NCBI GenBank assembly: GCA_937918905.1
Contig: CAKZSH010000367.1
Span: forward strand, 1 to 34,881
Source: an uncultured Saprospiraceae bacterium
GTDB taxonomy: Bacteria; Bacteroidota; Bacteroidia; Chitinophagales; Saprospiraceae
Reading direction: 5' to 3'
Length of the DNA: 34,881 bases
The translations under genes and the position numbers were made by a program. The notes under the pieces were generated by a model that saw only the letters and a list, made by a program, of their open reading frames with translations, made no database searches and had not been told where the DNA came from. Of the stretch, positions 4,183-23,852 are shown piece after piece (the stretch's first letter is position 1; each line of letters begins with the position of its first letter).

Positions 4183-5004
4183 TTACTTCTTCTTTGAGGC
4201 AAAATTATAACCTACTCCAATGCTAGGAGAGAATCCCAAATCCTGATGGTAATTGGAGGCTAAATCAAATCTAAAACCATTTTTCATATAATATCCTAAT
4301 CCAAAACTCAAAGCGGTTGGATTGGTTTGTACGCCAACTCGAATCCAAAAATCATCTATCAGAGCATACTCGACACCACTTTTAAAAATAAAAGGAAAAT
4401 CAAAATCTTTTTCAAGCTCTACATGTAGCATCAATTTTTTTGAAGCAGTATAAGTGGCCCCTGCTCGTACGATACTTGGTAAAAATTCATCTTCAATTAT
4501 TTCTAATTGAATTGGATTGTAAATATGAACTCCAATCAATAAGTTATCTATTAATTCAGATTGAAGTCCTGCTTCAAAAGTTAGGAAAGTCTTACTTCCA
4601 TTTTCTGCAATTTGAGTACTCAGTAAATCGAATTGGATACCAAGCGATAATTTTTCCATCAATTTCCTAGCATAGCTTAATCCTATTTTTGATTCATTAT
4701 AACTTTCAAATCCAAAATAATTTATACTTAAACCAAAAGTTCCAGAGTTGGTAGGCAAAGCAAAACCGCCGCCAAAATTATTAAGGTCTGCAATTAAAAA
4801 TCGTTGTTCGGCAGCAAGGAGAAAACCCATTTCTTTTAAATCAGCCAAACCTGCTTGGTTGTTAAAAATTCCATTAATTCCTTTAAAACTTACCGATGCA
4901 TTGGCGACTCCATTGCTTCGTGCGCCAGTAGCATTTGTTGCTCCATTTTGAGCGGATAATGAAAAAGTGACAATCAATAATATGAAGGAAAATAATTTTC
5001 GCAT
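4183..5004 (-). CDS. PorV/PorQ-like outer-membrane beta-barrel protein
   Basis: A 273-residue protein with a signal peptide ending LSLSAQ (cleavage near residue 19), then alternating hydrophobic/polar strands ending in an aromatic-rich C-terminus (SIGVGYNFASKKK). The N-terminal GATNATGARSNGVANASVSF and NNQAGLA segments resemble PorV/PorQ and FadL-like barrels of Bacteroidota, where PorV serves the type IX secretion shuttle. The length is shorter than PorV and closer to PorQ-like or unclassified barrels. It lies upstream of the glycosyltransferase gene on the same strand. The family assignment is from general pattern, so the exact role is unknown. Confidence 0.6.
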   Translation of the reverse strand: MRKLFSFILLIVTFSLSAQNGATNATGARSNGVANASVSFKGINGIFNNQAGLADLKEMGFLLAAEQRFLIADLNNFGGGFALPTNSGTFGLSINYFGFESYNESKIGLSYARKLMEKLSLGIQFDLLSTQIAENGSKTFLTFEAGLQSELIDNLLIGVHIYNPIQLEIIEDEFLPSIVRAGATYTASKKLMLHVELEKDFDFPFIFKSGVEYALIDDFWIRVGVQTNPTALSFGLGYYMKNGFRFDLASNYHQDLGFSPSIGVGYNFASKKK

Positions 5005-5048
5005 TGGGTATTTGAATCTTTGCTAATAATTTTGAATTACTTTTTTTT

Positions 5049-5133
5049 GTAACCGCCAAATTCATTTGGCAGGTTGTGAAAACGATTAATAAACAATAAT
5101 TTGAACAGCCAGCCAAATGAATTTGGTGGTTAT
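5049..5133. repeat. Palindromic element, family 2, copy A
   Basis: Arms GTAACCGCCAAATTCATTTG and, in reverse complement, the near-identical ATAACCACCAAATTCATTTG enclose an AT-rich loop. Two further copies with the same termini lie at 18359-18446 and 23761-23847. All three are 85-88 bp long and intergenic. The rest of the 323-bp gap 5005-5327 holds only the terminator described next and AT-rich sequence. Confidence 0.9.
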
Positions 5134-5327: not shown

Positions 5328-8204
5328 TTATTTTACAAAAATATTATTTGTAGAAATAATTGTTCCATCTAATCGAGTAATCATAAAGTAAGTTCCTGTA
5401 TTTAAAGTACTAACATTTAATTCATCTGTATAATTTCCAGCAGTTAAGTTTCCTAAATTTAACTGGTTAACATTTCTTCCTAACACATCAATTACATCTA
5501 CAGTTAATTGACCTGAAACAGGAATTGAAATTTGCAGATTCAATACTTCATCAACTGGATTCGGAAAAGCATTAACTTTTACTTTTTCCAAATCAACTTT
5601 AGAAATACTTGTAGGGCCAGCATTATTGATATTATCAATATAGAAGTTTTCAGCCATTCCAGCAGTTCCGAAATCTGGGAAAACTACAACTTGGTCGTAA
5701 GCAGCATTTGCATCCCAACCTGTGCCAGTTGACATATCAAAAACTAAAGTTTCCCAAGCATTTGAAGTAGTTGTGCTTTGTGCCAATTCTACAAAGATGG
5801 TACCTGGGTCATCCAAATCTTCAAATTTTAATAGGAAAGGAACACCTGCTCGTGGAGACCATACATCAACTGAAAAATTACTTCCAGTAGCTGTACCTAG
5901 GTCAATTGCAGTTTCCAAAGGAATTGCAACACCTGCCCAAGTTTCAGCACCCATTGTTTTGGTTAACTGAAGTACATTTGCACTTGTATTCATACCAGAA
6001 GCATCTGGATTTGCAATCATCATTGCCTCAAGGTTTCCAAACCCAAATGTTTGGTAAGTGATACCTGCTCCTCCTTGCTCAAAATCAACAGGTAGCGTAG
6101 GTAATGTAATAGGATTTACGACACTATTTGCTTGAATATCATCTACATAATAAGTAGTTCCTCCTGGATTTCCAGGGTTATTCATATTTGCAAAAATTAC
6201 AATTTGATTATATTGATGACTCGCATCGTAACCTGCAAATGTTGTCATATCAAAAACTAAAGTTTCCCAAGCATTAGCAACTGTTGTACTTGCAAATACC
6301 TCAGATATGATCGATGGATTTCCGTTTGCATCTGGAGGAGAAGTGGTGTCTTCCATTTTTAGCATAAAAGGAACTCCAGCATCTGGAGACCATACTTTCA
6401 TAGAGAAAACTCCACCTGCACTTAGGTCAACAATATTTTGTAATGGCATTGCAACACCAGCCCAAGTTTCAGCATTTTCAGGTTTGAAAATTTCTAAAAC
6501 ATTAGCACTAGTATTATCACCAGAAGCATCTGGGTTGGCTATTCTTTGAGCAGTATTATTTCCGAATGGGAATAATGTGTAAGTAAGTGTACTTGATTCA
6601 AAATCAATAGGAATACTTGGAAGTGTTACAGCTGGTGCAGAGCCTTGAATGTCATCTACATAGTAACTTGTTCCTGTTCCTGCTACATCGAAGTTTGGAA
6701 AAACAACAACTCTATCATAATTATTTGAAGCATTAAAATCGGCCCATTCTGCCATATCAAAAGTCAAAGTTTCCCATGCACCTCCAACTGTCGTTGTTCT
6801 TATCACCTCAGCTGCTATTGACCCATCATTAGAATCTTCTACTTTTAAGTTGAAAGCTGTTCCAGCATTTGGAGCCCATACTTTCATAGACAAAACTGAA
6901 CTACCAGAGAAATTAATAGGAGAACTTAAAGTAATAAATGAACCACCCCAAGTTTCAGCACCAGCAGATTTAAATAAATGCCAAACTGTTGCACTTGTGT
7001 TTTCACCAGAAGCATCAGGGTTAGCAATAATTTCAACACTATCAACTCCTCCAAAGCCCATAGGTTCATAAGCTAAAGTTGCATCTTCAAATTCCAAAGG
7101 AAGTACAGGGCCAGTAGGCATAACAGGCATAGCAGTTTGGATATCATCTATGTAATAACTTGCGCCTGTTCCAGCTAAATCTACGTTTGGAAAAATAACT
7201 ATTTGGTTATAATTGACAGTAGCATCGAATGTTGCATCGCCAGCCATATCAAATGTAAGCGTTTCCCAAGTATTAGCTACAGTCGTATTCATAATGATTT
7301 CAGCAAATACAGTTGGATTACCTCCACCCATAGGAATAGAACTTAAGTCTTCAATTTTAAATCGGAAAGGAACTCCTGCAGCAGGAGACCATACTTTCAT
7401 AGAAATAATACTAGTTCCTGAAAAATCAATTCCTTGTGCTAAAGGCATTGCTACACCAGCCCAAGTTTCTGCATTAGTTGGTTTATTTAAGTGAAGAACT
7501 GTAGCAGTTGTGTTATCTCCAGAAGCATCTGGATTAGCAATTACTTCAGCTACTAAATTTCCAAAACCGAATGCATCGTAAGTAATAGATGGTGATTCAA
7601 ATGAAACAGGAAGGTAAGGAGCTAATGGTCCTGAAGTAGGATTCATAATATCATCCACATAATAATCAGTTCCACCCGCTGTTCCCATATTTCCAAAATC
7701 AGCAAAGACAACAATTTGGTCATAACTGATAGTAGCAGCAAAATCAGGATGTGTTGACATATCGAAAGTCAATGTTTCCCAAGCATTTGCTCCAACAGTA
7801 GCTGCAGTTACTTCAGCAAAAACAGAAGGATTTCCATTTCCATCAGGTGGAGAGTTAGTATCCTCTATTTTAATTTGGAAAACAGTACCAGCAGCAGGTG
7901 CCCATACTTTCATAGTAATTTCATTTCCTCCAGAAAAATCAATTTTTGTAGCAATAGGCAATGCTACTCCTGCCCAAGTTTGTGCGCCGTCCTCTTTATT
8001 CATTTTAAGAACATTAGCACTAGTATTATCTCCTGACATATCAGGATTTGCAATGACTTCTCCAGTCGTTCCTCCAAATCCAAAAATATTCATTGGTGAG
8101 GTGTATGGATTTTCGAAATCAAGTGGTACAGTTTGGCTGTAAGCCGATTGACTTAACAATACACAAGCTGTAAGAAAAAGTGTTTTAGTAAATTTTTTAA
8201 ACAT
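5328..8204 (-). CDS. T9SS-secreted protein with five carbohydrate-binding-like repeats
   Basis: 958 residues. The signal peptide ends near AYSQ (residues 21-24). Five tandem repeats of about 155-160 residues lie at about 26-187, 198-356, 368-519, 531-691 and 704-860. Each has the order: (L/V)P(L/V)DFE, GFGG/GFGN, ANPDxSGxNT, ETWAG or ETWGG, KVW(A/S)P, KxED, AWETL(T/V)FDM, Y(D/N)QIVVF, and Y(Y)xD(D/N)I. Residues about 875-958 form a type A T9SS sorting domain (FPNPVDEVLNL, DVLGR, GTYF). There is no recognisable catalytic domain. From memory, similar beta-sandwich modules are found attached to GH16 laminarinases of Bacteroidota, so the inferred role is a secreted or cell-surface beta-glucan-binding protein. 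It lies downstream of the regulator and next to a beta-glucan locus. Substrate binding is inference; the repeats and sorting domain are seen directly. Confidence 0.85.
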   Translation of the reverse strand: MFKKFTKTLFLTACVLLSQSAYSQTVPLDFENPYTSPMNIFGFGGTTGEVIANPDMSGDNTSANVLKMNKEDGAQTWAGVALPIATKIDFSGGNEITMKVWAPAAGTVFQIKIEDTNSPPDGNGNPSVFAEVTAATVGANAWETLTFDMSTHPDFAATISYDQIVVFADFGNMGTAGGTDYYVDDIMNPTSGPLAPYLPVSFESPSITYDAFGFGNLVAEVIANPDASGDNTTATVLHLNKPTNAETWAGVAMPLAQGIDFSGTSIISMKVWSPAAGVPFRFKIEDLSSIPMGGGNPTVFAEIIMNTTVANTWETLTFDMAGDATFDATVNYNQIVIFPNVDLAGTGASYYIDDIQTAMPVMPTGPVLPLEFEDATLAYEPMGFGGVDSVEIIANPDASGENTSATVWHLFKSAGAETWGGSFITLSSPINFSGSSVLSMKVWAPNAGTAFNLKVEDSNDGSIAAEVIRTTTVGGAWETLTFDMAEWADFNASNNYDRVVVFPNFDVAGTGTSYYVDDIQGSAPAVTLPSIPIDFESSTLTYTLFPFGNNTAQRIANPDASGDNTSANVLEIFKPENAETWAGVAMPLQNIVDLSAGGVFSMKVWSPDAGVPFMLKMEDTTSPPDANGNPSIISEVFASTTVANAWETLVFDMTTFAGYDASHQYNQIVIFANMNNPGNPGGTTYYVDDIQANSVVNPITLPTLPVDFEQGGAGITYQTFGFGNLEAMMIANPDASGMNTSANVLQLTKTMGAETWAGVAIPLETAIDLGTATGSNFSVDVWSPRAGVPFLLKFEDLDDPGTIFVELAQSTTTSNAWETLVFDMSTGTGWDANAAYDQVVVFPDFGTAGMAENFYIDNINNAGPTSISKVDLEKVKVNAFPNPVDEVLNLQISIPVSGQLTVDVIDVLGRNVNQLNLGNLTAGNYTDELNVSTLNTGTYFMITRLDGTIISTNNIFVK

Positions 8205-8251: not shown

Positions 8252-8338
8252 AAACTAGTGTTTTTCCTTCTGGAAAATTAGGAAGTAATTAGCCATATTT
8301 TTAAAAAATAGCTACGATTCTACTACTCACACTAGTTT
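8252..8338. promoter_or_regulatory. Dyad in the leader of the five-repeat gene
   Basis: A perfect 10-bp inverted repeat, AAACTAGTGT (8252-8261) and ACACTAGTTT (8329-8338), lies 48-134 bp before the start codon, the arms 67 bp apart. It could be a pair of operator half-sites or the base of a leader stem. The rest of the gap 8205-8419 is featureless AT-rich DNA. Confidence 0.4.
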
Positions 8339-8467: not shown

Positions 8468-11341
8468 TTATTTAAACTGCATTAAGAATTCAGTTAAATT
8501 CTGTTCTTTTCGCAAAGAAAATTTCTTTCTTAGTCGATATCGACTCGCTTCCACTCCACGTGTAGTTACATTGAGTAAGGAGGTCATTTCTTTTGTTGTC
8601 AAATTCATTCTGAGGTAGGCACACATTTTCAAATCCTTTGGGGTCAATTCAGGATATGTTTCTTTTAATTTTTCAAAATAGCCACTATGCACTTGGTTAA
8701 AATGCAACATCATTTGTTCCCAATTTTCATCCTGAATTTCTTCAGCTTGGAGTTTTTGAATCAACTTTTGTATGGCTTTATTTGAATCAGGATCTTTTAC
8801 ATTTTTCTTGATTTCACCAAGGCGGGTTTTGATATTAACCAGCGTCTCATTTTTCTTTACCAAATTTAAAGTGGCGGAAGTTAATTCTCTTTGCTTGAAA
8901 GCTAGTTCCGATTCTTCTTTTTCCTCTTTTAATTTACCAATCGCAGCTTCTGATTCTTTTATAACTTGAATATGATCTTCTTTTAATCCTGAATATTTCT
9001 TTTGATAAAAACGGATAACATACCCCAAAAGCCAAACTCCTAACAATAAATATAATAGATAAGCTAATTTAGATTGGTACCACGGAGGGGAAATCGCAAA
9101 GGAATAAGTGATTTCGTTACTTAGAATTTGGCTATTACTTTTTGCTTGTAAATGGAAGGTATATTCTCCTGGAGAAAGGTTAGTATATTCTTTAAAATTA
9201 TTAAAATTCCAATCTGCCCAATCGCTTTCAAAACCTTCTAAATAGTATCGATATTGAGTTGCTTTGCCACTTGCAAAATCAGTCCCAGAAAAACTAAAAA
9301 ACCAATTATTTAAATCATGTGTAAATGATTTTATTTGAGTTTCAGGTTGCTGTGAAAGCACTTGGTTTTCTTCAAAATAAAAACCATTAGAAATTAAGGA
9401 ATCCCCTTTTGAAGTGATAGAAATATTATTGAACACTACTTGAAAAGAGGTATCGGCTTGGATGGAACTCGTAGGATGATAATGAATAAATCCTCTATCA
9501 TTGGTAATAAAAACATTATCATTCGTGAATGGATAAATGGTTTCAAAACCTCCATTTAATTGTTTATTTAAAAAAGGAAAAACGATTTTTTTAATTTTCT
9601 TTTCTAAACCTTTATCTGATATTTTTAAAATACCCAATTCCGTATTTGTGATAAACCAGATGTCGCCATTGGGTGTTTCTTGCAGCCTTCTTACTTTTGT
9701 ATTTTTTCCAAAAACACTATTAAAAGCATCATAGGGTTCAAACCGTTCTGACTCATAATTAAAATTAAAAACACCTCTTTCTCCACAGAAAATAATATCA
9801 TCTTTTATTCGAAATAAATGATTTAAATTGGCAGAGGGTAGACCATCTTGCGGGCCATATTTTTTTACTTCTGCAAAGCCTAATGATTCGTTTGGAGTAA
9901 TTTTATAAATACCTCGGTAGGGGTGAGACATCCAAATATTGCCTTTCATATCTTGCTCCATAAAACGGCAAGACTCGCCCAAATTTGTAAACAAAGGCTT
10001 AGTTTTCCATTGGTTTTCTACTTTATCAAATAAAACAATATTGTTATAACTTCCTGCGATTACCTTATCATCATATCCTTCTAATTCGTCGAAAGTCCAC
10101 ATTCCAGTTGTTTTAAAAAAACGTTTGGCTTTATCATTTTCGATAATATAAGCACCATTGTTATGACCAATGAGCAAGTCATCATCAATGATATCAATTC
10201 CCCACACCTGTCCTTTTGTATTTTCTATAAGGTCAAAATCATTAGTGGCATCAGGGCTGTAATAGGGTTTCCAATCTCTTTGATATAATCCTTTATTGGT
10301 GGCAAAATAAATTTTATCCTTAAATATTTTTATGTCAAAACCAACTGCATCTTTATCCTTATCGGGATAAATTCTGGTAAATGGAGAATTGATTTGGATG
10401 TAGTTAATTCCATTTGAAAGACCAATCCAAAGGTTGTTATTTTTGTCACAACAAAGGCTCAAAAAATTATTATTCAATAACCCATTTCCCTTATGGATAT
10501 GACTGATACTTTTTCCTTCCTCATCTAAAATTATAATCCCTCCATATGCAGTTGCTATGGCTAAGCGATTCCCTAAAATAGGAACGATATCATGAATCCT
10601 ATTTTCTTTAATAAAATCATCAACGTAAGTTTTCCAGGGTACTATTTTGCCTTTTTCTAAAGTAAAAAATCCAGCTTCTTGGCAGGCAATTAAATATCCC
10701 TGCTTAAAAGGTACGATTCCTTCCACCCCTTTGAATTGAAAAAACTCACTTCCTTCAATCAGTTTAAATTTATTATTTTCCAAAAAATAGATCCCCGTAA
10801 AAATATCTTGAGCATAAATTTTTCCATTGACTTGCCCTATATTTACGATATCACCTTTGGTATAAACATTAAAATGATTTTCATGAAAGTGGTATAATTT
10901 ATTGGATGCCCTAAAAAATATTTCTTCATTTTGAACTTCAATTTCCCATACATCTTCAAAGTTTTGATGTAGTTTGGGAATCAAATGTTTTAGGGATTCA
11001 AATTCCCAAATTCCTTTTTCATTAGGAATATACCTTCCAAACTCATTTTGACCTCCAGCATATATAATTCCATTATCCGTAATTCCCAAAGAACGTACAA
11101 TAGTAAAATTGGGTAGTGGGAAAACTGTCCATGTCGTACCATCAAATTGAAGCATACCACTATTATTAGCAAAGTACATTACGCCAAATTTGTCTTGAAC
11201 AATATCGGAGTTTTGAGATCCAGCCTCCGTAATTTCTTTGGGAAATGCTTGAATAATAGGCACTCCAAGATTATAGTCTTGAGCCAATAGGATAGAAGAA
11301 GATAAAAGTAGAAGTAGTCCTAGAAGGATTTCTTTTCTCAT
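8468..11341 (-). CDS. SusR-like membrane regulator: propeller, Y_Y_Y, TM, HTH
   Basis: 957 residues. A signal peptide (residues 1-20, ending ILLAQ) is followed by a long two-component-regulator-type beta-propeller with repeats such as DKNNNLWIGLSNGI and NGDIWFITN (to about residue 650), a Y_Y_Y domain near 680-755 (FSFSGTDFASGKATQYRYYL, LSPGEYTFHLQA), one membrane helix at about 759-779, a charged coiled coil at about 785-880 and a LuxR/GerE-like helix-turn-helix at about 898-957 (LTPKDLKMCAYLRMNLTTKEMTSLLNVTTRGVEASRYRLRKK in part). There is no histidine kinase or receiver domain, unlike hybrid two-component systems. It probably senses a periplasmic oligosaccharide and directly controls the divergent susC operon from the membrane. 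The downstream five-repeat gene may be its target or co-transcribed. Confidence 0.9.
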   Translation of the reverse strand: MRKEILLGLLLLLSSSILLAQDYNLGVPIIQAFPKEITEAGSQNSDIVQDKFGVMYFANNSGMLQFDGTTWTVFPLPNFTIVRSLGITDNGIIYAGGQNEFGRYIPNEKGIWEFESLKHLIPKLHQNFEDVWEIEVQNEEIFFRASNKLYHFHENHFNVYTKGDIVNIGQVNGKIYAQDIFTGIYFLENNKFKLIEGSEFFQFKGVEGIVPFKQGYLIACQEAGFFTLEKGKIVPWKTYVDDFIKENRIHDIVPILGNRLAIATAYGGIIILDEEGKSISHIHKGNGLLNNNFLSLCCDKNNNLWIGLSNGINYIQINSPFTRIYPDKDKDAVGFDIKIFKDKIYFATNKGLYQRDWKPYYSPDATNDFDLIENTKGQVWGIDIIDDDLLIGHNNGAYIIENDKAKRFFKTTGMWTFDELEGYDDKVIAGSYNNIVLFDKVENQWKTKPLFTNLGESCRFMEQDMKGNIWMSHPYRGIYKITPNESLGFAEVKKYGPQDGLPSANLNHLFRIKDDIIFCGERGVFNFNYESERFEPYDAFNSVFGKNTKVRRLQETPNGDIWFITNTELGILKISDKGLEKKIKKIVFPFLNKQLNGGFETIYPFTNDNVFITNDRGFIHYHPTSSIQADTSFQVVFNNISITSKGDSLISNGFYFEENQVLSQQPETQIKSFTHDLNNWFFSFSGTDFASGKATQYRYYLEGFESDWADWNFNNFKEYTNLSPGEYTFHLQAKSNSQILSNEITYSFAISPPWYQSKLAYLLYLLLGVWLLGYVIRFYQKKYSGLKEDHIQVIKESEAAIGKLKEEKEESELAFKQRELTSATLNLVKKNETLVNIKTRLGEIKKNVKDPDSNKAIQKLIQKLQAEEIQDENWEQMMLHFNQVHSGYFEKLKETYPELTPKDLKMCAYLRMNLTTKEMTSLLNVTTRGVEASRYRLRKKFSLRKEQNLTEFLMQFK

Positions 11342-11656
11342 TAAATTGTTTGTGCTGTGAGGTGTAAATATAATAAAAGTACACCCAATGAGTAGTAAAA
11401 TAGAAAAAATAAAAGGTCGGTGAGTAGGTATTTTTTAGGAAAAATATAATGAATTTAAAGCATGAGTGTATTAGTGAGGTGCTTTTATACCAAAAAATCA
11501 AAAATTCCAAATTAGATTTGTGTAAACTCATTTTTAGTACTGAGAATTTTTATAAAACTATTTTTTTTATTCAAAGCAAGCCACGTACTCCTTTTTAGTG
11601 CGTTTCACAATAGAAACAAATTCTCAGTATTGAATTCAATAAACTTATAATTTGAA
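11342..11656. promoter_or_regulatory. Divergent regulator/susC promoter region
   Basis: A 315-bp non-coding spacer between divergent genes. TAGATTTG at 11513-11520 matches the -7 consensus TAnnTTTG on the plus strand, but no clear -33 TTTG precedes it. Downstream, a 12-bp perfect inverted repeat TACTGAGAATTT (11538-11549) / AAATTCTCAGTA (11618-11629) flanks 68 bp. If transcription starts near 11527 the dyad would be in the susC leader; otherwise it may be an operator. No protein-coding potential was accepted here. Confidence 0.5.
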
Positions 11657-14600
11657 ATGAAAAAAAATCAACTTTTAATGCTACTCCTTTCCCTATTCAT
11701 GGGAATCCAAGTATCAGCGCAAATTACGGTAACTGGTAAAGTTACTGCGGCCGATGAACCTGATGGGTTGATTGGTGCTACAGTTATTCTTCAAGGAGAT
11801 GAATCAATTGGTACCACTACTGATATTGATGGAATTTATAAAATTACAGTACCTAGTGAAAATTCAGTTTTGTTAATCAGTTATACTGGTTTTCGAACAA
11901 GTGAAATTGCAGTCGATGGAAGAACAGAAATTGATGTTCTTATGGAATCAGGATTGGTGATGGATGAAGTTGTAGTGATTGGATACGGAACTCAAAAGAA
12001 AAAAGTCGTAACAGGTGCGATTTCTAAAGTAAAAGCTGAAGACCTTGAAAAAGCGGGAACGGCTCGTTTGGAGTCTTCTCTTCAAGGACGTACTTCAGGT
12101 GTACTTGTAGTTTCTGACTCAGGACAGCCAGGAGCAAGTGCCAAAGTACGAATCAGAGGAACAACTTCAATAAGTGATGTTGGTCCTCTTTATGTTGTAG
12201 ATGGTGTACCGATTGGAGGAGGTATTGATTACCTTTCACAAAGTGACATCGAATCTATTGAAGTTTTAAAAGATGCTTCGGCAGGTATTTATGGTTCGCG
12301 TGCTTCAGCAGGTGTAATTTTAGTAACTACTAAAAAAGGAAAAGCAGGACAAATGCGGGTGAATTATAGCAGCTATTATGGTATTCAAAATTCTTGGAGA
12401 AAATTGAGAGTTTTAAATGCTTCAGAATATGCTACACTTCTCAATGAAGCTTCTGTTGCTGATGGTGGAAATGTTCTTTTTGAAGATCCGCAAGTTTTGG
12501 GAGAAGGAACAGATTGGCAAGAAGCGGTATTTAATAAAAATGCTCCGATTCAAAATCATGAGATTTCATTAAGTGCTGGTTCTGAAAGATCAACTTATTA
12601 TGCTTCTTTTTCTTACTTCGATCAAGATGGAATTGTATCAGAAGAAGATTCAAAATATCAAAGATTTACAGCAAGATTTAATTCAGATCATAAAATAAGT
12701 GATCGTATAAGTGTAGGAAATACAATTGCATATTCTTATGTGAAATCTGTTGGAGTTTCTACTAACTCTGAATTTGGTTCTCCTTTAAGTAGAGCAATTA
12801 ACTTAGATCCACTTACTCCGATTTATGAAACACGTGAAGATGTTTTGAATTCAAGTGTCTATCAAAACTTTGCAGTAGTCGGAGATGAGAATGGGTTATT
12901 TGGAATTTCTGATTTGGTAACTTCTGAGGTTTTAAATCCACTTGCTGCTTTGGAAGTACAACAAGGATTTGGTCATAGTGATAAAATTGTATCTAGCCTT
13001 TATGGTGAGGTCAAATTGATTGATGGCTTAAAATTTAGAACTAGTATCGGAAGCGATTTGGCTTTTTGGGGTGGAGCAGGTTTTAGTCCTGTTTTCTATT
13101 TGAATGCAGCTAATCGAAATGATATCAATTCATATAACCGAGGTAAAAATCAAGGTTTGAAATGGATTTTTACCAATAATTTCTCTTATGAGAAGACTTT
13201 TGGCAAACACAGATTTTCAGGTATTGTTGGTATGTCCGCAGAGAAAAATAGTGGAAATGGGTTGAGTGGAACTATTCAAGATATTCCAGCTACAAGTTTG
13301 GAAGAAGCTTCTTTTTCTTTTTTCAATGATCCTGAAACTCAACGATTTGGTGGATTCGAATATGAAGATAGATTGATTTCTTACTTTGGACGATTGATCT
13401 ACAATTACCAAGAGAAATATTTATTTCAATTTGTTTACCGATTGGATGGTTCTTCTCGATTTGGTTCTAATAATAAATTTGGAGCATTCCCATCTGTTTC
13501 TTTAGGTTGGGTCGTTACAGAAGAAGATTTTTTATCCAATAATTCTAATTTGAATTTCTTGAAAATTAGAGGTTCTTATGGGATCAATGGAAATAATAAT
13601 ATTGGTGATTTTAGATTCCTATCAACGATAGGTGAAGGACGAACATACACTTTTGGTTTTAATGAAAACCTAACGAATGGTGCAAGTCCTAATCAATTGC
13701 CTAATCCTGATTTGAAATGGGAAAGAACAATTCAAACTAATGTAGGATTCGATGCAGTAGTTTTCAAAAACATTAATCTAACTTTTGATGTTTATAAAAA
13801 AGTGACTGATGGAATTTTAGGAAGACTCTTTTTACCAAGTTTTGTAGGAAATGAAGCAGGAGACGGAAATGTAGGTGAAATGGAAAATACAGGAGTTGAA
13901 TTAGAAATTGGTTACAAAAAGTCAAGAGGCGATTTCAGATTTGAAATATCTGGTAACACTTCTTATACTCAAAATGAAGTAGTATTCATTAACGATGACG
14001 CAGATTTTATTCCAGGAGAAAGATTTGGTCCACAAGGATTAGAAATTACTCGAACCTCTGTTGGCTTACCTTTCAACTACCTTTTTGGATATAAAACGGA
14101 TGGTTTATTTCAAAACCAAAATGAAATCAATAATCACGTAGGTGAAGACGGTGCCTTATTACAACCTGAAGCACAACCTGGAGATATTAAATTTATTGAC
14201 TTCAATGGTGATGGAATTTTGGATGATGAGGATCGTACTCAAATTGGAAATGCAATTGCACCTTGGACTTTTGGATTTACATTTAATGCTTCTTATAAAA
14301 ACTTTGATTTATTCTTATTTGGACAAGGTATTTATGGAAATGATATTTATAATGCGACTCGTAGATTTGATTTACCTAAATCTAACTTTAATGCTAAAGC
14401 ATTAGAAAGATGGACAGGTGAAGGAACGTCAAACGAATTTCCAAGAATGACACTTACTGATCCTAACAGAAACTATTCTCGTAGTTCTGATTTCTTTCTG
14501 CAAAATGGAGGATTTTTTAGAATTAAAACTTTGCAGTTAGGATATAATCTACCAACTGAGGTATTGGATAAAGTAGGCGCACAAAAAGTAAGAGTTTATG

Positions 14601-14731
14601 TATCTGGAAGTAATTTATTTACATGGACGAAGTACCAAGGATTTGATCCAGAGATTGGAGGAAGTGGAGTGGATAGAGGAATTTATCCTCAAGCAAGAAC
14701 AATAATGTTCGGATTAAATGTTGGATTCTAA
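11657..14731 (+). CDS. susC: SusC/RagA family TonB-dependent outer-membrane transporter
   Basis: 1024 residues, typical length. The signal peptide ends IQVSAQ (about residue 21), followed by a carboxypeptidase-regulatory-like domain (about 23-105: ITVTGKVTAADE, GATVILQG, GTTTDIDGIYKI), the TonB-box/linker DEVVVIGYGTQKKK, the plug (about 115-230; VRIRGTTSIS, PLYVVDGVPI, IESIEVLKDASAGIYGSRASAGVILVTTKKG) and a beta-barrel ending RTIMFGLNVGF. A calcium-site-like loop DFNGDGILDDED lies near residue 850. It imports oligosaccharides across the outer membrane using TonB energy and forms a lidded pair with the SusD protein encoded next. The start codon has an A-rich leader and no Shine-Dalgarno. The substrate is inferred from neighbouring GH16 and GH3 genes to be beta-glucan oligosaccharides. 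Confidence 0.97.
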   Translation: MKKNQLLMLLLSLFMGIQVSAQITVTGKVTAADEPDGLIGATVILQGDESIGTTTDIDGIYKITVPSENSVLLISYTGFRTSEIAVDGRTEIDVLMESGLVMDEVVVIGYGTQKKKVVTGAISKVKAEDLEKAGTARLESSLQGRTSGVLVVSDSGQPGASAKVRIRGTTSISDVGPLYVVDGVPIGGGIDYLSQSDIESIEVLKDASAGIYGSRASAGVILVTTKKGKAGQMRVNYSSYYGIQNSWRKLRVLNASEYATLLNEASVADGGNVLFEDPQVLGEGTDWQEAVFNKNAPIQNHEISLSAGSERSTYYASFSYFDQDGIVSEEDSKYQRFTARFNSDHKISDRISVGNTIAYSYVKSVGVSTNSEFGSPLSRAINLDPLTPIYETREDVLNSSVYQNFAVVGDENGLFGISDLVTSEVLNPLAALEVQQGFGHSDKIVSSLYGEVKLIDGLKFRTSIGSDLAFWGGAGFSPVFYLNAANRNDINSYNRGKNQGLKWIFTNNFSYEKTFGKHRFSGIVGMSAEKNSGNGLSGTIQDIPATSLEEASFSFFNDPETQRFGGFEYEDRLISYFGRLIYNYQEKYLFQFVYRLDGSSRFGSNNKFGAFPSVSLGWVVTEEDFLSNNSNLNFLKIRGSYGINGNNNIGDFRFLSTIGEGRTYTFGFNENLTNGASPNQLPNPDLKWERTIQTNVGFDAVVFKNINLTFDVYKKVTDGILGRLFLPSFVGNEAGDGNVGEMENTGVELEIGYKKSRGDFRFEISGNTSYTQNEVVFINDDADFIPGERFGPQGLEITRTSVGLPFNYLFGYKTDGLFQNQNEINNHVGEDGALLQPEAQPGDIKFIDFNGDGILDDEDRTQIGNAIAPWTFGFTFNASYKNFDLFLFGQGIYGNDIYNATRRFDLPKSNFNAKALERWTGEGTSNEFPRMTLTDPNRNYSRSSDFFLQNGGFFRIKTLQLGYNLPTEVLDKVGAQKVRVYVSGSNLFTWTKYQGFDPEIGGSGVDRGIYPQARTIMFGLNVGF

Positions 14732-14739
14732 ATTAAAAA

Positions 14740-14772
14740 ATTCACGACAGGACTGTAACTCCTCTTGTGAAT
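14740..14772 (+). other. Intercistronic hairpin between susC and susD
   Basis: A 33-nt imperfect hairpin starting ATTCAC and ending CTTGTGAAT, 9 bp after the susC stop. It shares its ends and exact length with elements at 16376-16408 and 19771-19803. No long T tract follows, so partial termination or 3'-end protection is more likely than full termination. Confidence 0.5.
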
Positions 14773-14820
14773 AGATTTAAAATCAAAAGACAATTTTTTA
14801 GTTTTTTAAAATTTATAGAA

Positions 14821-16359
14821 ATGAAAAATTATATAGCATATAAAATAATAGCAGTATTTGCTTTCCTGATTTTGGCAACTACCTCTTGTAAAAAAGATTT
14901 TTTAGAATTACAACCTAGAGGTACAGCATTGGAATCAAATTTTTACCAAACAGAAGATGAATTATTTCAAGGTTTGGTAGCCGTTTATGATGTATTACAA
15001 TGGGGTAGTACTTCAGGATGGACGATGAAGGTAGGTTTATTAAATGCAGCTTCAGACGATACTTTCGCAGGTGGAAGTGATGCCTCTGATCAACCTGCAT
15101 GGGTGGCTTATGATGGATTTGATTTGACTCCAACTTTGGGGCCACAAGAAGGATTATGGAGAAAATATTATGCAGGAATTTACCGTGCAAATCTATTGTT
15201 AGAAAAATTAGAAGAAGCACCAGCAGAGGTGGGAAGTTCTTTTAAAGCACGACTTGCTGCTGAGGCTAAATTTTTAAGAGGATACTTTTATTTTGACTTA
15301 GTGAAGTTTTTTGGAAGAGTGCCAATTATTACAGAAGTACTTAGTCCTGATGCGGTTAAAGAAGTAACACAATCGAGTGTAAGTGAAGTGTATGCTCAAA
15401 TAGAATCAGATTTGAATGCAGCTAAAAACGAATCGTTAATGCCTGAGTCAGTTCCTCCATCTGAATTGGGAAGAATTACTCAAGGTGCGATTTCAGCACT
15501 ACTAGGAAAAGTGATTCTATTTCAAAATAATGATGGTAGAATGATGGAAGCTGCTGGACATTTTGAAGATGTTATCAATTCAGGTTTCTATGCTTTGGAA
15601 CCTAATTTCGAAGATATTTTTACAAAATCAGGAGAGTTTGGTGCAGAGTCAGTTTTTGAAATTCCATTTGCAAGTAACAAGCCGGGCGACTGGGGATGTT
15701 GTTTTGCATCTGGTCCATTACAAAATCCTACCGAAGGCAATTTCAATGTTCAGTTTTTTGGAATGAGAGATTATGTTGGGCCTGATTATGCATCAGGTTG
15801 GAGCTTTTGTCCTGTGACTACTGATTTAGCTGATTTTATGGCAAATGATCCACGATATCAACATACGATTATTGATGGAAATGTATTGAAAGCGCAAGGG
15901 GCATCTTACACCGTAGGTTTTCAAAATACAGATTACTTTATTAAAAAATACGCTCCACTTGAAGCGGAACTTGCAACAGATGGGGTGACTGCATTAGCTT
16001 GGGGCACGAATGAACGGGTCATTCGATTAGCAGATGTTTACTTGATGGCTGCTGAGGCATTAATTAGGGGAGGAGGAGATAACAATACAGCAAGAGGATA
16101 TGTAAATACTGTAAGACAGAGAGTTGGATTAGCAAGTATTCCTTCTTCTGTAAGTGGAAATATATTGTTAGATGCAGTTCACAAAGAAAGAAGAATGGAG
16201 TTAGCGACTGAAGGACATCGCTTTTTTGATTTGGTACGTACTGGAAAAGCAGTAGAAGTTTTAGACGGATTTGTACCTGGTAAGCATGAATTATTACCGC
16301 TTCCGTTAATCGAATTGGATTTAGCAAATGGACAATTAACTCAGAATCCTGGGTATTAA
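14821..16359 (+). CDS. susD: SusD/RagB family glycan-binding lipoprotein
   Basis: 512 residues from the ATG at 14821; an upstream in-frame ATG at 14767 would put 18 poorly fitting residues before the signal and overlap the hairpin. The lipoprotein signal ends LATTSC (C23) followed by KKDFLELQPRG, a classic SusD N-terminus. Helical TPR-like features follow (EDELFQGLVAVYDVLQW, LAAEAKFLRGYFYFDLVKFFGRVPII) and the typical C-terminal ERRMELATEGHRFFDLVRTGKA and LLPLPLIELDLANGQLTQNPGY. It is the surface lid that delivers glycan to SusC. Lying directly after susC with a hairpin between, it is in the same operon. Confidence 0.97.
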   Translation: MKNYIAYKIIAVFAFLILATTSCKKDFLELQPRGTALESNFYQTEDELFQGLVAVYDVLQWGSTSGWTMKVGLLNAASDDTFAGGSDASDQPAWVAYDGFDLTPTLGPQEGLWRKYYAGIYRANLLLEKLEEAPAEVGSSFKARLAAEAKFLRGYFYFDLVKFFGRVPIITEVLSPDAVKEVTQSSVSEVYAQIESDLNAAKNESLMPESVPPSELGRITQGAISALLGKVILFQNNDGRMMEAAGHFEDVINSGFYALEPNFEDIFTKSGEFGAESVFEIPFASNKPGDWGCCFASGPLQNPTEGNFNVQFFGMRDYVGPDYASGWSFCPVTTDLADFMANDPRYQHTIIDGNVLKAQGASYTVGFQNTDYFIKKYAPLEAELATDGVTALAWGTNERVIRLADVYLMAAEALIRGGGDNNTARGYVNTVRQRVGLASIPSSVSGNILLDAVHKERRMELATEGHRFFDLVRTGKAVEVLDGFVPGKHELLPLPLIELDLANGQLTQNPGY

Positions 16360-16375
16360 TCTCTTTATCAACTTA

Positions 16376-16408
16376 ATTCATAAGGTGACTTTAAGTCACC
16401 TTGTGAAT
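16376..16408 (+). other. Intercistronic hairpin between susD and the PKD gene
   Basis: A 33-nt near-perfect hairpin: ATTCATAAGGTGACTT paired with AAGTCACCTTGTGAAT, starting 17 bp after the susD stop. It shares termini with the hairpins after susC and after the second GH16 gene. No T tract follows, so it is likely an attenuating or stabilising element. Confidence 0.75.
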
Positions 16409-16441
16409 AGAGGATGTCAAATTAATTTTAAAAAATATATC

Positions 16442-17314
16442 ATGAAAAATATCGTTTTAATTTTTGTAAGTGTATTGTTAGCTTTTAGTAGTTGTAAGCC
16501 ATCTCAAGAGGATGCAATAGAGTTAAGTGCGGTGCCTACTAACGTAGATTTTACTATCGAAGAAAAGGCTGGAGAAACCAATACGTACATTTTAACTAAT
16601 AATACAACGGGAACATTCCTTTATAATTGGGATTTGGGAAATGGTACTTCCGTTAGTGGTGAAACAGTAGAGGCTTATTATCCATCTAAAGGAGATTATG
16701 AAATTACCCTTCGAGCATTTAATAATGGTGGTTTTGGTACTGCTTCAAAAATGGTTCAAGTTTTAGAGGATGACGTAGCACCATGTCCGTCAGGTGGATT
16801 GATGGAGTTCCTTTCAGATTGTAATGAACTTGGTTGGACATTAGCTCCAGAAGCAGGTGCATACTGGGTAGGCCCAGATGATGCTACAACTTGGTGGTCT
16901 AATCCTGCAGATGATGTGAATGTTCGATTTTGTGCTTTTGATGATGAGTGGATTTTCAAATCAGATGGTGTAATGGTTTATGATACTAAAGGTGACCTTT
17001 GGGCAGAGGATTATATGGGACATAATTTTGAATGTGTAACGGATGACCAATTGACTGGCGATCCAGCCGTTTGGGGACCAGGAACTCATACTTTTTTGGT
17101 GAGTGATGATCCTATTCCACAATTAACTGTGGTAGGTTTAGGAGCATTTATGGGACTACCAAAAGCAACTAATGATGGTGAACTTACAACACCTACTGCT
17201 ACTCAAATTACTTATGACGTCATTGAAATGGGAACGGATGCAAATGGGAAATTTATGACACTTGAAGTAAACTTTGGTCCTGGACTTTGGAGATTTAAGT
17301 ATGTAGCACAATAA
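16442..17314 (+). CDS. PKD-domain surface glycan-binding lipoprotein
   Basis: 290 residues from the ATG at 16442; an in-frame ATG at 16385 lies inside the preceding hairpin and before the signal peptide, so it was rejected. The lipobox ends LAFSSC (C18). A PKD fold occupies about residues 25-95 (FLYNWDLGNGTSVSGETVEAYYPSKGDYEI in part, with ITLRAFNNGG). A second, Trp-rich domain of about 190 residues (EAGAYWVG, TTWWSNP, EWIFKSDG, GPGTHTFLV, FGPGLWRFKYV) looks like a carbohydrate-binding beta-sandwich but was not recognised as a named family. In position and design it corresponds to the SusE/F-type surface glycan-binding proteins, and PKD proteins of this type occur in laminarin loci of marine Bacteroidota. 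Function in binding beta-glucan is inferred. Confidence 0.75.
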   Translation: MKNIVLIFVSVLLAFSSCKPSQEDAIELSAVPTNVDFTIEEKAGETNTYILTNNTTGTFLYNWDLGNGTSVSGETVEAYYPSKGDYEITLRAFNNGGFGTASKMVQVLEDDVAPCPSGGLMEFLSDCNELGWTLAPEAGAYWVGPDDATTWWSNPADDVNVRFCAFDDEWIFKSDGVMVYDTKGDLWAEDYMGHNFECVTDDQLTGDPAVWGPGTHTFLVSDDPIPQLTVVGLGAFMGLPKATNDGELTTPTATQITYDVIEMGTDANGKFMTLEVNFGPGLWRFKYVAQ

Positions 17315-17399: not shown

Positions 17400-17464
17400 A
17401 AGTTCTTCCGGTGCTTATTTTCACTAGATTTTAATTCAGATGATTATACGCTCTGGAAGAACTT
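17400..17464 (+). promoter_or_regulatory. Leader inverted repeat upstream of first GH16 gene
   Basis: A perfect 10-bp dyad, AAGTTCTTCC (17400-17409) and GGAAGAACTT (17455-17464), with a 45-nt AT-rich interior, ends 26 bp before the GH16 start codon. It could fold as a leader stem in the mRNA or mark a regulator-binding site. Confidence 0.4.
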
Positions 17465-17490
17465 TATTAAAAGTCGCACTAATTTTTTCT

Positions 17491-18351
17491 ATGAAAAAAT
17501 ATATAAATCTGGCATTATTCGTTAGTTCGTTATGCTTTATAACATTGTCTTTACAAAAGTGTAAAGATTTAAAAATTGAAAAAAGTAATGAACCTATTTG
17601 GTCAGACGAATTTAATTATACAGGTGCTCCTGATTCTACTAAATGGAGTTATGATTTGGGAGATGGTTGTCCTAAGGTTTGTGGTTGGGGAAATAACGAA
17701 CTGGAATATTATACAGATAGGCTAAAAAATGTAAGAGTCGAAAACGGCCATTTAATTATCGAAGCACATAAAGAAGATTTTGAAAAGAAGCCTTTTACTT
17801 CCAGCCGTTTAGTTAGTCGGAATAATGGAGATTGGAAATATGGAAGAATCGAGGTGCGTGCTAAATTGCCAAAAGGACGAGGAACATGGCCAGCAATTTG
17901 GATGCTACCTACGGATTGGGAATATGGCGGATGGCCAGCAAGTGGAGAGATTGATATTATGGAACATGTTGGTTACAGTCCAGATTCAATCTATGGAACT
18001 GTCCATACAGAAGCCTATAACCACCTGAAAGGAACTCATATTGGCGATCAACGATATATTCCAGATTCAGAAGATGCTTTTCATATTTATGCTATCGAGT
18101 GGACAAATGAAAAGATTGATTTTTTCATAGATCAGGAAAAATATTTTACTTTTAAGAATGAAAAAGCAACCTTTAAAGAATATCCATTTGATAAGAGTTT
18201 TTATTTAATTCTTAATATTGCTGTGGGTGGAAGTTGGGGAGGAAAATATGGAGTTGATGATTCGATTTTTCCCGTAAAAATGGAAGTAGATTATGTTAGA
18301 GTTTATGATAAGGAACATATGGGAAGTCAAGCATTAATTTCACAAAATTAA
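17491..18351 (+). CDS. GH16 endo-beta-1,3-glucanase (laminarinase) lipoprotein
   Basis: 286 residues from the ATG at 17491; an in-frame ATG 51 bp upstream would put 17 residues before the signal and overlaps the leader dyad. The signal region ends SLQKC (C24), a weak lipobox. The catalytic domain fills the rest: WSDEFNYTG, GWGNNELEYYTD, RIEVRAKLPKGRGTWPAIWMLP, and the GH16 signature EIDIME with nucleophile E153, assisting D155 and acid/base E158, then a C-terminal VDYVRVYD strand. The pattern is that of laminarinase-type GH16, which cleaves beta-1,3 or mixed-linkage glucan. It would act at the cell surface or periplasm to produce oligosaccharides for SusCD. Exact linkage preference cannot be read from sequence. 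Confidence 0.92.
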   Translation: MKKYINLALFVSSLCFITLSLQKCKDLKIEKSNEPIWSDEFNYTGAPDSTKWSYDLGDGCPKVCGWGNNELEYYTDRLKNVRVENGHLIIEAHKEDFEKKPFTSSRLVSRNNGDWKYGRIEVRAKLPKGRGTWPAIWMLPTDWEYGGWPASGEIDIMEHVGYSPDSIYGTVHTEAYNHLKGTHIGDQRYIPDSEDAFHIYAIEWTNEKIDFFIDQEKYFTFKNEKATFKEYPFDKSFYLILNIAVGGSWGGKYGVDDSIFPVKMEVDYVRVYDKEHMGSQALISQN

Positions 18352-18358
18352 TTTTAAA

Positions 18359-18446
18359 TGTAACCGCCAAATTCATTGGGCTGGTTGTAGAAATTATTGA
18401 TTACTATTTAAACGAACCAACCTGTCAAATAAATTTGGCGGTTACA
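18359..18446. repeat. Palindromic element, family 2, copy B
   Basis: The termini TGTAACCGCCAAATT and AATTTGGCGGTTACA are perfectly complementary; inner parts GGGCTGGTTGT / ACCAACCTGTC pair less well. It starts 7 bp after the first GH16 stop codon, matching copies at 5049-5133 and 23761-23847. It may terminate or attenuate transcription between the two GH16 genes. Confidence 0.9.
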
Positions 18447-18561
18447 AAGAACTACTAAAAGACATTTAGAACCATAAATTTTCAATAACTTTGAAATAGA
18501 AGAATTAACGCTCTAAGTCAAATAACCTATTTAAAATCAATCGTACTTAAAAAGTAAGTTT

Positions 18562-19761
18562 ATGAAAAATAATATAATTTATACGTTTGGAATATTGATC
18601 AGCATGTTACTAATTATCTCTTGCGGAAAAGACGATGATCCAAATGGCGGAAATGGTAATGGTGGAGGCGGAACAACTCCTATCAAAATTACGATAACGG
18701 ATATTACAAAATTTGAGGGGAATGATGCGACGACATTTGATTTCAAAGTACGACTCAATGAGACTACTTCTGAAACAGTAAGAGTGGATTTTACAACAAA
18801 CGATTTGGCAGCAGTTGCAGGAGAAGATTATGTGGCTCAAAGTGGAACAGTTTCTTTTGATGGAACAAAAGAAGAAATCATCTCTATTGAAATTGTAACG
18901 GATACATTAAAGGAAGGAGATGAGGATTTTGAAGTTATTTTATCCAACCCAACTAATGCTACCCTTGAAAAAAGTAAAGGGACAGGAATTATCCGAAATG
19001 AAGATACTTATCTTGCAGGAAGTAATGATGGTTATATCACTCCTGAGGCATACGCTGGAATGACTTTAGTTTGGAGAGATGAATTTGATGGGCCTACGAT
19101 TGATCCTAATAATTGGACACATGAAATAGGTACAGGTGACTGGGGCTGGGGAAATAATGAATTGGAATATTACACCGATCGAGCTGAAAATTCTTTTATC
19201 TCTGATGGCAAATTAGTCATTGAGGCTAGAGAAGAAAGTTTTAGTGGAAGCAACTATACTTCGGCTAGAATGATAACTGCAAATAAACAAGAATTTGTTT
19301 ATGGTCGAGTTGATGTACGTGCGAAACTTCCTGAGGGGCAAGGCTTGTGGCCAGCAATTTGGATGTTAGGAGCAAATATTTGGGATGTAAGTTGGCCTCA
19401 ATGTGGAGAGATTGACATTATGGAGTTGGTAGGACATGAGCCAAATAAAATTCATGGAACTAGTCACTTTAATAATAATAATTCTCCGCTAGGTGGAAGT
19501 TATTCCTTAGGTAATGAAAAATTCATTGAAGAATTTCATGTCTTTAGTGTGGTTTGGGAAGAAGATCAAATAAAATGGTTGATGGACGATATTCAATATT
19601 ACTCGGTGACAAAAAGTAATGTGGGTAGTAATTATCCATTTAACAATAATTTCTTTTTTATTTTAAATGTAGCAGTAGGTGGAAATTGGCCAGGAAGTCC
19701 TGATGCGACTACTGTTTTTCCACAAAGAATGTTTGTGGATTATATTCGAATTTTTCAATAG
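18562..19761 (+). CDS. Calx-beta plus GH16 endo-beta-1,3-glucanase lipoprotein
   Basis: 399 residues. The lipobox LIISC gives C21, followed by GKDDD, an acidic stretch resembling the surface lipoprotein export signal of Bacteroidota, and a Gly-rich linker (27-38). Residues about 40-148 form a Calx-beta domain (VRVDFTTNDLAAVAGEDYV, EGDEDFEVILSNP). Residues about 165-399 form a GH16 domain with EIDIME (E283, D285, E288), WGWGNNELEYYTD, AKLPEGQGLWPAIWML and FVDYIRIFQ at the end. It is a laminarinase-type enzyme, displayed at the cell surface. It differs from the preceding GH16 by its extra domain, so the two probably differ in location or substrate. A terminator follows. Confidence 0.93.
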   Translation: MKNNIIYTFGILISMLLIISCGKDDDPNGGNGNGGGGTTPIKITITDITKFEGNDATTFDFKVRLNETTSETVRVDFTTNDLAAVAGEDYVAQSGTVSFDGTKEEIISIEIVTDTLKEGDEDFEVILSNPTNATLEKSKGTGIIRNEDTYLAGSNDGYITPEAYAGMTLVWRDEFDGPTIDPNNWTHEIGTGDWGWGNNELEYYTDRAENSFISDGKLVIEAREESFSGSNYTSARMITANKQEFVYGRVDVRAKLPEGQGLWPAIWMLGANIWDVSWPQCGEIDIMELVGHEPNKIHGTSHFNNNNSPLGGSYSLGNEKFIEEFHVFSVVWEEDQIKWLMDDIQYYSVTKSNVGSNYPFNNNFFFILNVAVGGNWPGSPDATTVFPQRMFVDYIRIFQ

Positions 19762-19809: not shown

Positions 19810-19940
19810 ATATTAAAAACGAACTTCAACGAGACAAAATAATTACATAAAAACAATACAATTACAAATAGCGAAATGGATTTAAAAAAATAAAGTAATC
19901 CATTGAAATGATTACACAAACAAAAAACAATTTTATCAAG

Positions 19941-23760: not shown

Positions 23761-23847
23761 AGTAACCGCCAAATTCATTTGGCTGGTTGTATAAAATCTG
23801 ATTTTAAATTATTTATGCCAACCTGCCAATTGAAATTGGCGGTTACT
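23761..23847. repeat. Palindromic element, family 2, copy C
   Basis: Perfect termini AGTAACCGCC / GGCGGTTACT with inner CAAATTCATTTGGCTGGTTG and CCAACCTGCCAATTGAAATTG largely paired around an AT-rich loop. It begins 19 bp upstream of the exonuclease start codon, in a divergent promoter gap. Same family as 5049-5133 and 18359-18446. Confidence 0.9.
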
Positions 23848-23852
23848 AAAAT

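Follow-up and report, generated by a model that had tools for sequence, protein, structure and literature searches.

In the ocean, laminarin constitutes a major pool of carbon, and models of uptake in Bacteroidota centre on SusCD together with lipoprotein binders. The closest solved relative of the protein described here is PDB 8qx6, which carries the title 'Novel laminarin-binding CBM X584' (CBM, carbohydrate-binding module) and the molecule name 'PKD domain-containing protein'. Multivalent binding of beta-glucan is described for CBM92, with three sites in one beta-trefoil, on enzymes, and about half of the CBM-containing multimodular proteins analysed in the same paper are predicted cargo of the type IX secretion system, T9SS (PMC11039641). 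Here we describe a gene at positions 5328-8204, minus strand, of a 34,881-nucleotide window (the whole stretch of DNA analysed, contig CAKZSH010000367.1 of assembly GCA_937918905.1, from an uncultured Saprospiraceae bacterium). It encodes five modules, assigned below to the X584 kind, followed by a T9SS sorting domain.

We consider it probable that the gene product is a T9SS-exported, non-catalytic, multivalent laminarin capture protein, co-induced with SusCD. Five X584-kind modules on one chain would bind beta-1,3-glucan (laminarin), and T9SS would export the chain, which would most likely be retained at the cell surface. The gene and the laminarin-type SusCD operon would be switched on together, probably under the adjoining regulator. 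The presumed benefit of multivalency is avidity and reach: several sites per chain would hold soluble or particle-bound glucan near GH16 and SusCD. The gene and the parts of its product are as follows.

5328-8204, minus strand: coding sequence of the five-module T9SS protein, 958 residues (open reading frame call, translation, Pfam/NCBIfam scans)
8133-8204, minus strand: signal peptide, residues 1-24, ending AYS-Q, read by eye as Sec type I
7614-8129, minus strand: module 1, residues 26-197 (module alignment)
7104-7613, minus strand: module 2, residues 198-367 (module alignment; folded alone, see below)
6615-7103, minus strand: module 3, residues 368-530 (module alignment)
6096-6614, minus strand: module 4, residues 531-703 (module alignment)
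5589-6095, minus strand: module 5, residues 704-872 (module alignment)
5376-5567, minus strand: T9SS C-terminal sorting domain, residues 880-943 (PF18962)

Each module is about 165 residues long; the chain starts with the signal peptide, continues with the modules and closes with the T9SS type A tail. A preliminary description of this DNA had placed the open reading frame exactly, without naming its strand, and had seen in it five diverged tandem modules. The modules are indeed homologous: pairwise identity is 47-57% in the alignment and 45-57% in the ten blastp pairs, with blastp E values of 2e-40 to 6e-62 at a database size set to 1,000,000, and a chance repeat was ruled out because all ten pairs lie at or below 2e-40. 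The motif ANPDxSGxNT is present in all five modules. The other motifs said to be kept in each occur in four of five: module 1 has QTWAG for ETW(A/G)G, module 5 has DVWSP for KVW(A/S)P and DNI for the final DDI, and module 2 has TWETL where AWETLxFDM was expected. Nucleotide identity between the modules is 57-64%, and third positions agree in just 52-64% of codons for identical residues. Hence, the copies in the window are old and diverged.

The tail exceeded the cut-offs of both PF18962 (37.5 bits, cut-off 27) and TIGR04183 (26.9 bits, cut-off 23), so that the sorting domain named earlier is confirmed. As had also been claimed, no catalytic domain was found in the Pfam and NCBIfam scans of the protein. 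A catalytic or protease role was rejected, the T9SS tail being the sole match above cut-off, and a match to Sec_GG (13.7 bits, cut-off 20.3) was set aside as noise. A stretch LTAC was seen by eye at residues 11-14, within the hydrophobic core of the signal, a position that, judged by eye only, is too early for a usual lipoprotein signal; the copy in the genus mate (G078) has a signal sequence without cysteine. A search for T9SS machinery, covering SprA and the PorV family, detected SprA (2406.7 bits) and five PorV-family genes above cut-off in the organism's own genome. This genome encodes two further module proteins, one on C216 (two modules and a T9SS tail) and one on C147 (one module).

Proteins with a T9SS type A tail generally end up attached to the surface, which speaks against release, and we infer that this non-catalytic protein is exported by T9SS and probably attached to the surface. 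A released cross-linker or scaffold, which would leave the cell and gather laminarin and enzymes in an extracellular mesh, appears very unlikely. Many sites per chain would permit cross-linking, and such a role has been proposed for multivalent CBM92 proteins (PMC11039641); however, no enzyme-docking domain was found in the window protein by the Pfam scan.

To identify the module, a profile of 27 aligned modules was compared with solved structures. It matched 8qx6 at E 4.9e-26 over positions 1-153 of 154, the next four matches being Cas12i chains at E of about 1, and single-protein phmmer reached 1.7e-6 against 8qx6. AlphaFold2 folded module 2 as an almost all-beta structure with a predicted local distance difference test score (pLDDT) of 93.1 and a predicted template modelling score (pTM) of 0.87. 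Foldseek ranked 8qx6 first for this model (E 1.1e-8), and structural alignment gave Z 19.0 with a root mean square deviation of 2.0 over 146 residues, whereas the next-best neighbours, CBM11 and a chondroitin lyase domain, reached Z 13.8. The preliminary description had called the modules glycan-binding-like, and the model is indeed nearest, by far, to a carbohydrate-binding relative. Profile and fold together indicate a module of known laminarin-binding kind. Its assignment to CBM X584, and with it the glycan-binding reading, is well supported, and laminarin is the presumed ligand. At module 2 positions W51, W75 and W116, an aromatic residue is found in 97%, 97% and 100%, respectively, of 190-191 modules from the survey described below and the window.

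Another glycan ligand (mixed-linkage glucan, beta-1,6-glucan or the organism's own exopolysaccharide), in a locus broader than laminarin, is an alternative to which we give little credence. The modules are just 28-29% identical to 8qx6, and among their neighbours in fold is CBM11, of which there is a structure with a mixed-linkage oligosaccharide. Nevertheless, 8qx6 is by far the nearest fold, and SusD and both GH16 proteins of the adjacent locus point to beta-1,3-glucan.

No Pfam or NCBIfam model covering the window's modules was found when both libraries were scanned, and on the 27 aligned modules the Pfam families that matched most often, CBM_4_9, Big_12 and CBM_35_2, did so weakly and in 2 of 27 each. 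Library-based annotation will thus overlook many such proteins. The statement that the proteins have no Pfam family at all was given up in this form; it holds for the window protein outside its tail, not for all relatives, two of which pass a cut-off in or near a module (L010, CBM_4_9; L052, CBM_35_2). Some chance-looking families also exceed the cut-off in relatives.

The genes around the module gene are the following.

4183-5004, minus strand: PorV/PorQ-like outer membrane protein, 3' of the module gene (51 bits, cut-off 90)
8468-11341, minus strand: regulator with Reg_prop and Y_Y_Y domains, adjoining the module gene (Pfam scan)
11657-14731, plus strand: SusC-type outer membrane transporter (TIGR04056)
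14767-16359, plus strand: SusD (best solved relative 6gcz, E 3.5e-102)
16385-17314, plus strand: PKD protein right after SusD, without X584 module (related at E 2.5e-13 to the solved PKD domain protein 7kv5)
17440-18351, plus strand: GH16 (nearest solved relatives laminarinases and beta-glucanases)
18562-19761, plus strand: GH16 with a Calx-beta domain (nearest solved relatives laminarinases and beta-1,3-glucanases)
19908-22250, plus strand: GH3 glycosidase (Pfam scan)

The SusC-SusD-PKD-GH16-GH16-GH3 genes are divergent from the module gene and the regulator. The relative of the PKD protein, 7kv5, is presumably SGBP-B (surface glycan-binding protein B) of laminarin loci. The relative of SusD, 6gcz, is a Gramella SusD that binds branched laminarin (PMC11351036). 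By the relatives of its proteins, the SusCD locus beside the module gene is of laminarin type, in keeping with the beta-glucan locus named in the preliminary description.

Co-induction with this locus is suggested by an upstream box.

8312-8329, minus strand: upstream box TGAGTAGTAGAATCGTAG, 107-125 bp ahead of the module gene start
11389-11427, plus strand: TGAGTAG in two copies at a spacing of 32 bp, 5' of SusC in the gap to the regulator gene (pattern search)

The first TGAGTAG box before SusC reads TGAGTAGTAAAATAG and corresponds to the first half only of the full box. The sequence TGAGTAGTA occurs twice in the window, 5' of the module gene and 5' of SusC, and the same two placements were found in 20 kb of the genus mate G078. 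In both species a second TGAGTAG follows 32 bp on, 5' of SusC; the spaced pair occurs once in the organism's own genome. The full box precedes the module gene in the window, in G078 and in G095. An initial pattern, drawn from the two module-gene boxes, matched one other place in 5.5 Mb with at most one mismatch. This place lies about 60 bp 5' of an unlinked gene for a 907-residue GH5-CBM6-T9SS protein (G000:C275, L139, 2891-5614, minus strand, own genome), whose solved relatives include glucan 1,3-beta-glucosidases. The 78% identical GH5 relative in G078 (L156), whose upstream region did not enter the widened pattern given below, has a box about 75 bp upstream, with one mismatch.

The widened pattern TGAGTRGTRNNATNGTAG was found at 27 places in five genomes (about 37 Mb, at most one mismatch), compared with 9 for the reversed pattern. 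The six exact places, all of which had been seen beforehand and had shaped the widened pattern, lie 5' of a module gene (three), 5' of a GH5-CBM6 gene (one) and in the gap between SusC and the regulator (two). Among the 21 places with one mismatch, one is the G078 GH5 box, and 18 of the 20 others lie inside open frames of at least 100 residues and look like background. Ten boxes were read, three of which keep TGAGTAGTA without the second half (SusC in the window and in G078, GH16 in G095). A 9-mer shared across four upstream regions of the window and G078 was reached in the same orientation by 3 of 2000 shuffles and on either strand by 25 of 2000, figures that give no clean probability because orthologous upstream regions are related. 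Of 17 further loci, L053 and L051 have the exact 9-mer in the gap where it was expected, and L055, L056 and L057 have it, as background, inside genes; it was not found in the other 12, including L067 and the flavobacterial L009, L010, L013, L014 and L015. Matches to GTGAGTAG over the window with one mismatch numbered 17 against a mean of 11.5, a count reached by 8 of 100 shuffles and not clearly above chance. Weight is therefore given only to the longer box, to where it lies and to how well it is conserved. The full Bacteroidota -7/-33 promoter consensus was not found in the nine upstream regions tested.

The presence of the box 5' of the module gene, of the GH5 genes and, in part, of SusC makes co-regulation likely. 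There is thus good, partly post hoc evidence for one candidate beta-glucan regulon that would comprise the module gene, SusCD and GH5, and the neighbouring regulator presumably binds the box. Co-regulation with SusCD, whose absence the preliminary description would have counted against its reading, is in this way supported and not proved.

A search with the module profile alone, as proposed earlier, covered 150 genomes of the organism's family, of which 104 have the module, and a phylum sample of 395 genomes, of which 80 have it. Loci were then surveyed at 60 places among the matches listed, with preference for high scores and usually a single place per contig; the organism's own genome contributed two. 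These loci contain 72 open frames with modules, of which some are truncated where the contig ends. A tail of 80-100 residues past the last module is present in 43 frames, 18 with at least three modules and 25 with one or two, and PF18962 matches all 44 such tails when the window protein is included. Seven frames have a lipobox-like signal and end at the last module. The remaining 22 include four GH16 fusions as well as arrays whose tail measures about 230 residues. Five of these arrays were scanned (L062, L063, L086, L087 and L089), and all carry a fasciclin domain and a T9SS tail; L062 has nine modules, the highest count. At least three modules with a T9SS tail are thus found in 23 of 72 frames (18 + 5).

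Fasciclin-bearing T9SS module proteins were located at L062 7875-13190, L063 7846-10281, L086 1-3027, L087 2-1924, L089 1132-3984 and L049 3-1787; the domain follows the modules in five of the six and precedes them in L049. A widely conserved two-module T9SS protein of about 430-450 residues occurs in L099 (own genome), in L107 and in 12 more of the 60 loci. The minus-strand frame L095 6284-11530 encodes 1749 residues with three X584 modules and a cohesin domain above the Pfam cut-off; its dockerin type I and T9SS tail matches lie just under the cut-offs, a combination unexpected for the family. L056 15736-18129 and L057 1494-3938 encode two weaker modules each and both adjoin SusC in laminarin-type loci. 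In the L056 protein there are, in addition, AMPK1_CBM/CBM48 domains and a match to the T9SS tail that falls slightly short of the cut-off.

Gene content of the 58 relatives' loci was compared with 20 control regions from the same genomes. GH16 was present in 27 of 58 loci versus 0 of 20 controls (p 6e-5) and the regulator in 20 versus 1 (p 0.009); SusC (12 versus 1, p 0.17) and SusD (9 versus 0, p 0.10) followed, and GH3 was not enriched (5 versus 1). These p values are rough, since the loci are non-random and shorter on average (918 kb in 58 versus 400 kb in 20).

Fasciclin domains serve adhesion, and the array could mainly fasten the cell to surfaces rich in glucan, such as algal debris, particles or other cells, rather than supply SusCD. 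Export by T9SS fits such an adhesin, as do the fasciclin domain in all six related T9SS proteins scanned, one of which (L049) falls on the same branch of the module tree as the window protein, and the 31 of 58 relatives' loci without GH16. The fasciclin domains of the five long-tail arrays raise this possibility slightly and lower that of laminarin capture slightly. However, the window protein itself has no fasciclin domain in the Pfam scan, its gene shares a box with the secreted GH5 and, in part, with SusC, and it sits in a laminarin-type locus. We therefore regard a predominantly adhesive role as unlikely.

The history of the arrays was read from a quick tree of 99 modules. Support is weak for 34 of its 96 inner branches, and two G078 modules are long-branched. 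The window's five modules fall into one set of 14 rows (Shimodaira-Hasegawa-like approximate likelihood ratio test, 96), which also holds modules of T9SS proteins in G078, G095 and G063 and of a G108 protein fused to GH16. In the long arrays L062, L065, L066 and L089, modules group by protein with support of 86 to 99. Arrays thus seem to have expanded repeatedly. The six-module array L054 3532-6840 (minus strand) has practically identical modules 3, 4 and 5 (end branches 0 to 0.012), which by this likeness is a recent tandem expansion.

Two further features of the window were recorded. The PorV/PorQ-like gene at 4183-5004 is kept in the genus mate at 72% identity and could be a cargo-specific partner; as a dedicated exporter it was dropped, since among the 58 relatives' loci only the genus mate's holds a related gene. 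A palindromic repeat of about 90 bp lies at 5046-5132, 18356-18450 and 23762-23849. It has 84 matches in the organism's own genome, mostly 70-90% identical and in many places on both strands, and looks like a small non-coding mobile or REP-like (repetitive extragenic palindromic) element.

Several points weigh against laminarin capture under SusCD control. The conserved aromatic residues may be structural, and at such low identity to 8qx6 the ligand could have shifted. The full-length model (8 sequences; mean pLDDT 67.1, pTM 0.30), with residues 194-365 mostly below pLDDT 50, is too poor to inform on module arrangement or reach. The box consensus was largely drawn by inspection. Related arrays, including that of the close relative L049, carry the fasciclin domain. 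GH16 is missing from the 31 loci mentioned above, some on short contigs, and was not found in the fetched stretch of any of the 13 relatives' loci with the two-module T9SS protein; hence, membership in a beta-glucan locus does not extend to all module proteins.

A broader proposal, which we advance tentatively and with slightly less than even confidence, is that Saprospiraceae and relatives possess a second, long-reach glycan-capture layer besides the SusD/SGBP lipoproteins. It would consist of T9SS-displayed, enzyme-free X584 arrays of up to nine copies, expanded several times independently, and at least the window's branch would belong to a TGAGTRGTRNNATNGTAG beta-glucan regulon that includes SusCD and the T9SS GH5 glucanase. 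The window protein itself hints at multi-armed sugar catchers on the surface of some Bacteroidota, in addition to the usual ones. If the protein is a co-regulated T9SS multivalent binder, a surface-capture step via a different secretion route would be added to uptake models. With a defined number of modules per array and a likely operator, both the value of multivalency and regulon membership are directly testable.

Compared with CBM X584, the module is the same by full-length profile and fold, but the solved chain of 8qx6 has one module, whereas here five lie on a T9SS protein. A scan returned nine loci, five of them flavobacterial (Robertkochia, Gillisia, two Salegentibacter and Gramella; L009, L010, L013, L014 and L015) and the other four from metagenome-assembled genomes of Saprospiraceae (one), Flavobacteriales (one) and Balneolota (two), one with GH16 fused to two modules. 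The flavobacterial laminarin-type loci share with the window a regulator, SusC, SusD, GH16, GH3 and the same modules, but place the X584 modules on the protein right after SusD, followed by GH16 and GH3. Their carriers have PKD domains (5 of 5 above the Pfam cut-off), a lipoprotein signal by eye and two or three recognised modules, and lack a T9SS tail, whereas the window carrier has no PKD domain and is encoded on the opposite strand, beyond the regulator. The role had been described as not usual in SusCD systems; the modules are in fact ordinary on the PKD lipoprotein after SusD in these four genera, and it is the multi-copy T9SS form that is unusual. SGBP-B is likewise a non-catalytic glycan binder in a SusCD locus, but has different domains, and the SusE/SGBP-B slot after SusD is taken in the window by 16385-17314 and not by the module gene. 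CBM92 has three sites per beta-trefoil on enzymes, whereas the window protein repeats one beta-sandwich module five times and is enzyme-free. Titles and the first lines of abstracts on T9SS multi-CBM binders mentioned no such arrays, which does not prove their absence in print. The module and its binding role are thus of a known kind. What is new, as far as seen, is the T9SS array, together with its distribution in the family and the box held in common.

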